Both the position numbers and the translations under genes were made by a program. Below the pieces are notes generated by a model that saw only the letters and a list, made by a program, of their open reading frames with translations, did not search any database and was not told where the DNA came from. Shown piece by piece: positions 11,060 through 14,738 of a stretch of 64,000 nt of DNA. Source of the DNA: a bacterium (GTDB lineage: Bacteria; Planctomycetota; Planctomycetia; Planctomycetales; Planctomycetaceae). Each line of letters opens with the position of its first letter. The first letter of the stretch is position 1. Location of the stretch: contig WGME01000003.1 in assembly GCA_016125225.1 (NCBI GenBank), forward strand, positions 806,001-870,000, in the 5' to 3' direction.

Positions 11060-12709
11060 ATGACTGATAGAACTGCTCATCCGCTGGATCGTACCTTCTC
11101 GCTGCTGGCTGAGGCCGATGGGATGCGGGCCACGCAGCTACTATGTACCGCTTTGGAAGTTCCGCGGGAGGAAGTTCAGACGGCTGCCGCGAATGTCATT
11201 CTGCAGCAGTCGGGGCATGCCTGCCGTATGGAATTGCTCCGGCGGATCGATCAATTGCCGGAACGCGTCCTGCAAATGGTGCATGGTGCGGCCGTCTCGC
11301 TGAACAGCACATTTCGCCAGTTGCTGTTGCATGGCACACCCCATTCCCAGGCCTATGCGCTGCGTGCCATTCAGCTGACCGAGCAGTATTATCAGGCGGC
11401 GAATCTGCTGGAAATGCTCAAGCGTTCCACCACGCCCGACCTGGAAGCCGTGACAGAAACCCTGCGGGCGCTGGCAGACCGTCTATTCGATCGCTGGCAG
11501 GCCGAGCGGGACGGCATGGCACGCTCCGGGCAACCGACGCTTGCGCAACGTCATGAAATGTTGCTGGCATTTGATCATGCGCTGCAGTCGTGGGAGGATT
11601 ACGGTCATACAGAGATGCTCGCGGAAGTGGTGCTTATACTGGCAGAACCAAGTCACCCCACCGCGCGGCGTTTGTTGTGGCAATCGGCGCCTGCCTGCCG
11701 CGAGATCGCCTCTCGCGTCTTAAAGGAAAGCCGTCATCCCGGGGTCATGCAGTTCCTGGCGGAATCGCTGACGGAACGCTATCCGCATCCCAAAGTTTTC
11801 GAAGCCATCCACACCCGCTCGGATCCCGAGTTCATCGGTGGCTTACTGCGGGTGATATCACGGCGGCGATCCAACCAACAGATACAGCATCTCCGACAGA
11901 TTCAGAAGCTGCCGTGGCTGGAGCCACCCTTTGAACTGCTGGCCATGATTCCGCTGAATCTGCAGCCCGCGCTCATCACGTTTGTGAACGCCACTCGCAT
12001 CCCCCGGGAGATTAAGTCCGGTGTGTACGAATGGCTGCTCAGGTATGGCACACCCGATGGGAAACGGGCGGCCACCGAGGGGATGACGCCTCTCGAAGAA
12101 TCCACCATCCAGGAAGTTGTCCGCGACAGTCTCGATTCCCCTGACGAAGAGGTGCAGGCCTGGGCCGTATCGCAAGTGCGGCAACATGCCATGCCGGAAG
12201 CCTTCGTCGTCTTGATCGAGCGACTGGATAGCACTTCCGCGACCGTACAGAAAGCTGCCCGAGAAGAGCTGAGTTGGTTCAATGTGGCCCGCGTGTTGGC
12301 TATGGCCGACGAACTTCCCCAGGACGATGCTCTACGGGCCGGTGTTTTGCTGATGAAAGTCGACAGTGACGCAGAGGCCAGCATTCGGCGGGAACTCTCG
12401 CATCCCGCTCGCCACAGGCGTCTCAATGCCGCTCGCCGTGTCGCTTGGCTGGGATTGCATTCGTTGTTTACATCGGCATACCAGACGTTGGCCTACGATA
12501 CCGATCCACTGATGCGTCGCACCACTGCGGAAGTCTTGAAGACCAGTTCCGATCTGGCGGTCGAATCGATTCTGGAGCACTTGATCGATGACCCGCATCC
12601 GCGTGTACGCGAAGCCGCTGCACAATCGCTTGCGGACTGGCAGGAGCAATTCCAGCGCATGATGTCCGGACAATCCCCTTCCACGCCTTCTTCGATGCCA
12701 GAATGGTAA
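11060..12709 (+). CDS. HEAT-repeat domain protein
   Basis: Repeated helical units, e.g. DSPDEEVQAWAVSQVRQH and DDPHPRVREAAAQSLADW. Confidence 0.75.
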   Translation: MTDRTAHPLDRTFSLLAEADGMRATQLLCTALEVPREEVQTAAANVILQQSGHACRMELLRRIDQLPERVLQMVHGAAVSLNSTFRQLLLHGTPHSQAYALRAIQLTEQYYQAANLLEMLKRSTTPDLEAVTETLRALADRLFDRWQAERDGMARSGQPTLAQRHEMLLAFDHALQSWEDYGHTEMLAEVVLILAEPSHPTARRLLWQSAPACREIASRVLKESRHPGVMQFLAESLTERYPHPKVFEAIHTRSDPEFIGGLLRVISRRRSNQQIQHLRQIQKLPWLEPPFELLAMIPLNLQPALITFVNATRIPREIKSGVYEWLLRYGTPDGKRAATEGMTPLEESTIQEVVRDSLDSPDEEVQAWAVSQVRQHAMPEAFVVLIERLDSTSATVQKAAREELSWFNVARVLAMADELPQDDALRAGVLLMKVDSDAEASIRRELSHPARHRRLNAARRVAWLGLHSLFTSAYQTLAYDTDPLMRRTTAEVLKTSSDLAVESILEHLIDDPHPRVREAAAQSLADWQEQFQRMMSGQSPSTPSSMPEW

Positions 12710-13197
12710 TGCCGATGTCTGCGATCAGCATCTTTCTGCCGTCAACCTTGCCTCTCGTCTGGGGACAGATGAATCCGTTTGAGGCCACTCGCGAATACAT
12801 GAATCAGCCGGTCTCGTATCAGGGACTCGGTTATCTGTTGGTCCTGATCATCGCCGCCGCAACGGTCTGGATGATTCTGTATTGGTGGGAACAGCGCAAC
12901 GAAAAGCTGGCTGCACGCTCGACGTCTCTGGAATCGCTCTTTGTCGGACTCTGCCGCCGCCATGAACTGACACCGGCTCATGTGCAGCACCTGCAAACAC
13001 TGGCGGAACAACGCAAACTCAGTGACCCGGCTCTGGTCTTTGTCGACCCGCGATACCTGGAATGTCAGGCGGCGGTCCTGTCACCAGAACGCGACCAGTG
13101 GCTGGAATTGGGATATCGCCTGTTTGGCGAGCACTTCCATGCCGTGGCAAGCGTTGTCCACGAAAGCCCACAAGAGCGCCCGGCAGACGAGAATTGA
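12703..13197 (+). CDS. Single-TM uncharacterised protein, overlapping the HEAT gene
   Basis: TM segment YLLVLIIAAATVWMILYWW; start overlaps upstream stop. Confidence 0.6.
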   Translation: MVMPMSAISIFLPSTLPLVWGQMNPFEATREYMNQPVSYQGLGYLLVLIIAAATVWMILYWWEQRNEKLAARSTSLESLFVGLCRRHELTPAHVQHLQTLAEQRKLSDPALVFVDPRYLECQAAVLSPERDQWLELGYRLFGEHFHAVASVVHESPQERPADEN

Positions 13198-13205
13198 AAA
13201 ACCGA

Positions 13206-14204
13206 TCAGGCTGCGGGAAGTTCGCGTACCACGGAACTGGCTGCCTGTTGGGAAGACAGCTCGGCTTCGAGCTCTGCAATCTCGGCCCGCATCGTTTCGA
13301 GATGGGCCTCCTGCTCGGCCAGTCGATGCTTCAATCGTTGCAGCCGCTTTTCCGGGCCGCCGAGGATCAAACGCTGAATGAGATCCACCACGAGCAACGC
13401 GCGATAGCTGCGCATCGCGACGCCACGGAGTTTGTACATGCGGGCCGTCTTGCCCAGGCTTTGCAGCCGCAGCAGGCGACCCAGACGCAAGGCCCGCAAA
13501 AAAGCCAGCAACGGCAACAGGATGATGGCCAGATCGATCCAGTGCTGCTTGCAGTAGGCGAGCTTCTTTTCCGTGACTGAGACCATCAAGACGAATTCGA
13601 TGGTAAAAGCCCACCAGATCACGGCGGTGGCTCCCTGCACCGTACGCGATAGCCACAAGTGATTCTGGATCGCATCTGCAAGCAGATACTCCACGAGAAT
13701 CACGGGGAGCACGAGCAGCGAAATCGCGAGCATCGGCTGATTGAGCAGATCCTCCAGATCGCTCTGAAGTTGCCGCTCGACGGTCCGCCAGCCCAACCGA
13801 GGCAACCAGACCTGCGGGGGATCACCACGTCGGCGACCGAGTCTTAACACGGGCAGAACGGCTTGCAGATACAGCAGCCATGAAGCCTGCGGGTCGCGTC
13901 GTCGTTGCTGAAGCACGTCCCACCAGAAGATCGGCCAGATGACCAGCAGGGAAATCACTGAAGTCCAGAACAGATTCGCGTCAAACGGCGACTCATGAAA
14001 ATGAAAAACAACCGCCAGACACCCCAACCAGACCAGCGAGGCGAAAAACAACCCGCGACTGACCACAGTCACCTGCAACTGCGGCGTGCTGGAATTTTCG
14101 GCAACGGGCAGATTCTGTGACACGGCATTTCCACGAGGCACGGGCGACGGACTTAAACATTTCCAACGGGGCATATTCTCTGTCAGATCAGGGAAATCGA
14201 TCAA
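13206..14204 (-). CDS. Membrane protein with voltage-sensor-like domain and C-terminal coiled coil
   Basis: FTIEFVLMVSVTEKKLAYCKQHWIDLAIILLPLLAFLRALRLGRLLRLQSL (S2/S3/S4-like), followed by KRLQRLKHRLAEQEAHLETMRAEIAELEAEL; no pore signature seen. Confidence 0.65.
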   Translation of the reverse strand: MIDFPDLTENMPRWKCLSPSPVPRGNAVSQNLPVAENSSTPQLQVTVVSRGLFFASLVWLGCLAVVFHFHESPFDANLFWTSVISLLVIWPIFWWDVLQQRRRDPQASWLLYLQAVLPVLRLGRRRGDPPQVWLPRLGWRTVERQLQSDLEDLLNQPMLAISLLVLPVILVEYLLADAIQNHLWLSRTVQGATAVIWWAFTIEFVLMVSVTEKKLAYCKQHWIDLAIILLPLLAFLRALRLGRLLRLQSLGKTARMYKLRGVAMRSYRALLVVDLIQRLILGGPEKRLQRLKHRLAEQEAHLETMRAEIAELEAELSSQQAASSVVRELPAA

Positions 14205-14282: not shown

Positions 14283-14738
14283 ATGGTTTCAGGTGACGAT
14301 GCCCTCGCAGTGACGGAAGCCACGGTGTCCGACAGTCTCGATGATATCTACGATGATCATATCCTTGATCATTTCGAGTCTCCCTACCATAAGGGGGAAC
14401 TCGCCGGAGCGACCTGTCAGCATTCCGACCGCAACCCGATCTGTGGCGACCAGCTCACTTTGTATTTGAAAATCAGTGATGCAGGCGTCATCGAACAAGC
14501 CTACTTCGATGGCAAGGGGTGTGCCATCAGCCAGGCAGCGGCCTCGATTCTGTGTGAGTATGCCGAGGGAAAAACCCGGGCCGATTTGCAGGCTCTGCAA
14601 GCCAAAGACATGCTCAAACTGTTGCAGGTCCCGTTAACACCCAGCCGTCAGAAATGTGGCCTGTTGGGGTTTAAGGTGCTCAAGACCATGCTTTACGGCT
14701 GGGGCCAGCCTCCGGCAACACCAGCGACGTCGCCCTGA
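14283..14738 (+). CDS. sufU: SufU-type Fe-S cluster assembly scaffold
   Basis: NPICGDQLTLYLK, FDGKGCAISQAAASIL and RQKCGLLGFKVL cysteine motifs. Confidence 0.93.
   Translation: MVSGDDALAVTEATVSDSLDDIYDDHILDHFESPYHKGELAGATCQHSDRNPICGDQLTLYLKISDAGVIEQAYFDGKGCAISQAAASILCEYAEGKTRADLQALQAKDMLKLLQVPLTPSRQKCGLLGFKVLKTMLYGWGQPPATPATSP

Follow-up and report, generated by a model that had tools for sequence, protein, structure and literature searches.

Animals and protists are well known to have stand-alone voltage sensors. Whether bacteria also have them, and what such a protein would do without a pore, is the question raised by a gene in the window (the whole 64,000-nucleotide stretch of planctomycete DNA analyzed here). 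An earlier note had described its product as a voltage-sensor domain (VSD) followed by a coiled coil; the open reading frame (13206–14204) and the residues it named (E203, D224 and R237/R240/R243/R246) all lie where it put them. Read on the minus strand from a TTG start, the frame encodes 332 aa, and an alternative ATG at residue 11 (position 14174) would give 322 aa. The VSD gene is outside any operon. A small convergent gene (12703–13197, plus strand) lies 9 bases from its end, and a sufU-like/sufS-like pair (at 14283 and 14773, plus strand; names read from translations) stands back to back with it. In a comparison of 36 neighborhoods we found no partner gene conserved except among close relatives, and the DNA flanking the VSD gene in 39 loci held no pore motif in any plausible channel. 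Since the gene stands alone, neither a pore nor an enzyme dedicated to it is encoded next to it. A plasmid search gave no match.

The segments of the protein are collected in Table 1. The extra transmembrane helices that had been noticed N-terminal to the sensor were recovered as TM1 and TM2. Lysine and arginine counts per loop put the K/R-poor TM1–TM2 loop and the S1–S2 loop outside, and the TM2–S1, S2–S3 and post-S4 segments inside. The TM2–S1 hairpin, placed inside because it is basic (positive-inside rule), consists of two short strands with pLDDT >90 in the full AlphaFold2 (AF2) model. S4 of the window protein is FLRALRLGRLLRLQ. In the alignment it is followed by a conserved ARxYRLRG motif plus K/R265, R268 and R278, with a short hydrophobic segment at ~262–281. 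The C-terminal coiled coil (core 286–316, heptad positions 288/291/295/298/302/305/309/312/316) was also borne out: across the family, its a/d positions are 82% LIVMF versus 7% elsewhere. Because positive-inside topology puts the post-S4 segment inside, the coiled coil is expected to be cytoplasmic.

Table 1. Coordinates of the predicted pore-less VSD gene and its segments in the window, and of giant planctomycete VSD proteins from other loci
Feature	Coordinates	Strand	Basis
Whole gene, predicted pore-less VSD protein, 332 aa	13206..14204	-	ORF, relatives, dN/dS
N-terminal TM1, residues ~52-70	13995..14051	-	Hydropathy; helix in AF2 model; conserved MF start
N-terminal TM2, residues ~81-98, conserved acid at 96	13911..13964	-	Hydropathy, alignment, AF2
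Cytoplasmic hairpin TM2-S1, residues 118-141	13782..13853	-	P118, R121, W133, P135 invariant; basic
S1, residues 157-176; P167 invariant, acid E172	13677..13736	-	Alignment, hhalign
S2, residues 190-210; W197, F200xxE203-F204 invariant, charge-transfer-center motif	13575..13637	-	Alignment
S3, residues 221-234, HWIDLAIILLP; D224 and P231 invariant	13503..13544	-	Alignment
S4, residues 235-254; R237/R240/R243/R246 every third residue	13443..13502	-	Alignment, register, hydrophobic moment
Post-S4 linker and short hydrophobic helix, residues 255-283	13356..13442	-	Alignment, AF2
C-terminal coiled coil, residues 284-318	13251..13355	-	Heptads; high-pLDDT helix
Giant planctomycete VSD proteins, 1100-1600 aa	L120-L126, L094 (e.g. 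L122:1205-5107)	- (L122)	Pfam

The strongest sign that the arginine repeat is a voltage-sensor S4 is its register across the family. Among 34 non-redundant sequences, 162 of the 196 basic S4 residues fall in one mod-3 register (62.8 ± 5.9 in shuffled sequences, maximum 83), so that the every-third spacing noted for the window protein holds for its relatives. In nearly all members, the basic residues from the S3 proline to the YRLRG anchor occupy positions +6, +9, +12, +15 and onward in the same steps. S4 length variants are mostly −9, −3, 0, +3 and +6, with 25 of 34 being multiples of three, a count inflated by shared ancestry; because these variants are mostly whole three-residue units, the every-third repeat is kept as S4 grows or shrinks. 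The hydrophobic moment of S4 is 0.87 at the 3-10 angle versus 0.13 at the alpha-helical angle (100 degrees). The length and charge number of S4 vary: L012 carries nine consecutive every-third basic residues, and a few members (L070, L065 and degenerate paralogues in L089) have lost most S4 charges.

Homology points the same way as the register did for the earlier reading of a voltage sensor, and we regard that reading as upheld. By hhalign, the family VSD matched bacterial K+ channels at 99.3% (E 1.2e-19), or at 98.8% (E 9.8e-17) under slightly different settings, and S1–S3 without S4 still matched them at 98.0% (E 2e-13). Controls gave ≤1.5% (column-shuffled), 0.2% (channel pore half) and 0.1% (CydA, CydB and P-type ATPase). 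The channels in these comparisons were ones that the family profile had already found, and the unbiased values are the per-genome profile E-values: the best pore channels reached E ~1e-7 to 1e-16, aligned over S1–S4. When six profile-matched channels were checked with Pfam, all six had Ion_trans over the cut-off and two also RCK. As described in PMC13095418, the gating-charge transfer center combines acidic residues with an aromatic in S2 that is highly conserved; by alignment, its counterparts here are F200-x-x-E203 in S2 and D224 in S3.

Fifteen of 34 members touched Ion_trans at E ≤ 0.1 (best 2.8e-4). The window protein itself stayed below the Pfam gathering score for Ion_trans, gave only sub-threshold coiled-coil and Ion_trans matches against Pfam and NCBIfam, had no Ion_trans_2 match in the Pfam scan and returned coiled-coil noise in a phmmer search of the PDB. 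The full-length profile matched mostly coiled coils in the PDB, including Hv1 (3wkv) through its coiled coil only, and NaChBac through the N-terminal part (E 0.06); with a VSD-only profile, the VSDs of Kv2.1, Kv4.2 and Nav channels ranked at the top with E ≥ 0.34. AF2 modeled the full protein (34 rows) with a mean pLDDT of 83.6 and a pTM of 0.71; TM1, TM2, the hairpin, S1–S3 and the coiled coil were confident, and residues ~241–260 had a pLDDT of ~50. The VSD-only model (mean pLDDT 69.9) drew S3 and S4 as one helix (222–250). Foldseek found no significant match for either model, with KCNQ2, NavAb, Kv2.1 and SLC9C1 frequent among the top rows (E > 0.6). Thus, S4 as a membrane helix, the VSD fold and the voltage response rest on homology. 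On that footing we are confident that the protein is a pore-less VSD, and it probably responds to voltage.

The family is largely planctomycete. A pattern scan of 84,980 species genomes returned 15 loci, 13 of them planctomycete and two in metagenome-assembled genomes (MAGs) labelled Granulosicoccaceae. A protein search of 99 related genomes gave matches in 28; one of these was a true K+ channel (G051) and another a masked fragment (G015), leaving 26 genomes with the VSD protein. A profile search matched 46 of 392 genomes of the phylum, with the weaker matches (E > ~1e-20) being mostly pore channels or coiled coils. In total, we used 53 distinct pore-less VSD sequences, nearly all planctomycete. 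The layout is kept in more than 50 related sequences, and on this ground we rejected loss of the pore through a frameshift or misassembly. Among 38 aligned members, W197, F200, E203, F204, D224 and P231 are invariant (38/38; W197–P231 checked column by column). The S4 arginines are conserved unevenly: R237 in 37 of 38, R240 in 30, R246 as 27 R and 4 K, and R243 as only 19 R and 5 K. dN/dS was 0.01–0.10 in 11 close pairs of relatives, and by this measure the VSD is under strong purifying selection. In a tree, pore-less VSDs and pore channels fall on opposite sides of one branch, which is weakly supported (SH-aLRT 76) and set among long branches.

Several members depart from the common form. Two related pore-less VSDs from another planctomycete family, group f93 (L077:3823-4629 and L078:3197-4135), have a shorter S4 and no N-terminal pair of TM helices. 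Divergent neighboring paralogues in G034 (L089:3266-4219, minus strand, and L089:4311-5111, plus strand) kept the N-terminal module and lost the S4 charge pattern; they are possibly retired sensors. L025 (G073) and L036 (G067), from genomes of different families, each have a single in-frame stop (TAA and TAG, respectively) in mid-S4, where relatives have Gln. Their frames are otherwise intact, with possible restart codons just past the stop, and these may be pseudogenes, errors or split genes. In a Granulosicoccus MAG (L012:1379-5475), a GbsR/MarR-like regulator and cydA-cydB follow directly downstream of the VSD gene, all on one strand, the names being read from translations; the other Granulosicoccaceae locus (L006) is without this arrangement.

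We next consider the pore, since its presence would have undone the original description. Counted from the YRLRG anchor, the tail after S4 is 57–153 aa long in all members (median 77), and the tails of the 53 sequences contain no filter motif and no S5/S6. Their maximum 19-residue hydropathy is 1.55, whereas S5/S6 of true channels reach 1.72–2.46. No Ion_trans protein of the host genome scores above the cut-off; the genome has four pore-type Ion_trans_2 proteins, all located elsewhere than the VSD gene. One host 2TM + RCK protein (L118, G000:C27:1159167-1159385) has the unusual filter sequence TTVGLSATSQ. In the 99-genome set, 13 of the 26 VSD-carrying genomes are without an Ion_trans match over the cut-off. 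Of the host's four pore proteins, two were compared with the VSD protein for co-occurrence, and neither was consistent: the L116 type is present in about half of VSD carriers, and the L117 type has four matches in the 99 genomes, three of them weak.

What, then, might the protein do? It is most improbable that there is no VSD at all and that an unrelated 6TM protein carries the S4-like repeat as an amphipathic segment in the cytosol or at the membrane interface. The AF2 models, which draw the basic stretch either as coil of low confidence or as an extension of S3, would allow this reading; however, S1–S3 alone match K+-channel VSDs, the invariant F-x-x-E and D stand at the expected places, and true pore channels with the same short S3–S4 connection align over S1–S4. 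A more serious concern is that the VSD itself conducts, as a voltage-gated proton or cation pathway and an Hv1 analogue that arose independently in bacteria. The layout matches that of Hv1 in having a VSD, a C-terminal coiled coil and no pore. The Asp that the earlier note had proposed to look for in S1 is nevertheless missing: at the position of Hv1 Asp112 there is no acid, and residue 165 (7 before the S1 Glu) is I, V or L in 53/53 sequences; in an alternative alignment, the invariant P167 falls there. The only conserved S1 acid is E172, which we take to be at the position of Hv1 E119 and Shaker E247. RxWRxxR was found in none of the listed family S4 segments. Against one human Hv1 sequence (verified with PDB 5oqk), hhalign gave only 0.1% for the family VSD, a single-sequence comparison being less sensitive, versus 20% for the same K+ channels. 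With two defining features (S1 Asp and S4 RxWRxxR) absent, we rejected membership in Hv1, and from the sequences the likeness to Hv1 is one of layout, not kinship. A naked K+-channel-type VSD can nonetheless conduct, as the isolated Shaker VSD, with its sequence unchanged, is a voltage-gated cation channel with a strong proton preference (PMC5092046). Set against this, the cell would pay dearly for a constitutive proton leak, and the charge-transfer center, with F200 as its invariant plug and with E203 and D224, looks sealed. Taken together, we consider conduction unlikely.

The VSD might instead be a separate voltage-sensor subunit, associating in trans with a K+ channel that consists of a pore only. 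There is precedent in split KCNH channels, which keep voltage gating without an S4–S5 link (PMC4389246), and the host, with four Ion_trans_2 pore proteins and no Ion_trans over the cut-off, could supply the pore. Yet no pore gene adjoins the VSD gene in 39 loci, two of the host's four pore types, L116 and L117 (the other two being of RCK type), do not track the VSD protein, and the channel-facing S4–S5/S5 sequence is replaced by the coiled coil; we think a trans subunit very doubtful. Alternatively, the sensor may be retired, with the VSD kept as a membrane scaffold or as a lipid or ligand sensor and the voltage response lost. Variation of S4 length and charge number by clade, conservation of R243 in only half of the members, the few members with few S4 charges and the lost pattern of the L089 paralogue pair would all fit such a history. 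The mod-3 register and whole-repeat indels, however, are hard to explain without an S4-type constraint, the charge-transfer residues are invariant, and L012 has nine every-third basic residues. For the family as a whole we therefore judge retirement rather improbable.

The reading that we prefer, and hold to be the likelier one, is an oligomeric stand-alone pore-less voltage sensor whose output is signaling or regulation rather than conduction. Three points favor such an output: the absence of the Hv1 selectivity acid, an intact charge-transfer plug and a hairpin conserved like the VSD. The invariant residues of the hairpin match the VSD core in conservation, which hints at a function in addition to sensing. 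In this stand-alone sensor, the coiled coil would make the protein a dimer or other oligomer. A change in membrane potential would shift the S4 arginines past the F200/E203/D224 charge-transfer center, and the conserved ARxYRLRG linker would relay that shift to the coiled coil and the cytoplasmic hairpin, where a partner protein or the N-terminal module might read it. We can only infer the output, since no conserved partner gene was found, and we lean slightly toward its being non-conducting, that is, conformational.

The family does not stand alone in its phylum. When relatives were checked for Ion_trans, we found VSD-only matches (profile positions ~2–129) in ORFs of 668–1602 aa from many planctomycetes, and we fetched seven giant-protein loci. 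These proteins match the VSD half of Ion_trans only, with up to 37 bits (cut-off 25) and over the cut-off in several; the full-length giant proteins examined have no pore domain and no other Pfam domain. After their VSD comes a long region of ~900 residues that belongs to no known family and includes a few additional hydrophobic segments. They resemble the coiled-coil family in being pore-less VSDs of the same phylum, and differ from it in that the VSD is embedded in 1100–1600 aa with further TM segments. It would appear, then, that pore-less voltage sensors are a more general trait of the planctomycete phylum. We tentatively extend this to the possibility that planctomycetes have dedicated membrane-potential signaling proteins, as channel-free sensors in two forms with an origin independent of Hv1 and the voltage-sensing phosphatases (VSPs).

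A conserved bacterial family of pore-less VSDs suggests that the stand-alone VSD arose a second time, separately. The family gives genetics a way to ask whether bacteria use a dedicated sensor protein to read their membrane potential, and it supplies biophysics with a compact natural VSD. Because S4 changes length mostly by whole three-residue repeats, the family is also a natural experiment on the lengthening and shortening of S4.

How does the family compare with known voltage sensors? A 2023 review of voltage-gated proton channels, drawing on database searches, reports a K+, Na+ or Ca2+ selective pore alongside every prokaryotic VSD known so far, sees no evidence for typical Hv1-type channels among eubacteria or archaea, and traces Hv channels to a split in an early eukaryote (PMC10377628). 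The combination of VSD and coiled coil is thus as unusual for bacteria as had been supposed, and the family contradicts the review's statement on pores; its statement that prokaryotes have no Hv1 is untouched, because the family fails the two Hv1-defining features. No earlier account of a pore-less VSD in bacteria turned up in our literature search, whose scope did not extend to subscription papers, preprints or UniProt/InterPro annotation. The proposed likeness to Hv1 and VSPs held for the pore-less VSD layout and, with Hv1, for the coiled coil; it did not hold for kinship with Hv1 or for a phosphatase. Like Ci-VSP/TPTE, the family has a VSD without a pore, but it lacks their catalytic domain: the ~77 aa after S4 hold no Pfam domain and no PTEN-like phosphatase domain, only the linker and coiled coil. 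Hv1/VSOP of eukaryotes shares the pore-less VSD with a cytoplasmic C-terminal coiled coil, and differs in its S1 Asp, its S4 RxWRxxR and its lack of the extra N-terminal 2TM module. The bacterial 6TM K+ channels (PF00520 Ion_trans; L079, L080, L082–L088 and L043) are alignable with the family throughout S1–S4, and share its S2 F/E, S3 D, S4 Arg at every third residue and near-absent S3–S4 loop. Unlike these channels, the family has no S5-pore-S6 and carries two extra N-terminal TM helices, a hairpin and a long coiled coil. As judged from sequence homology, then, the family is a stand-alone VSD in bacteria, derived from a VSD of the K+-channel type.
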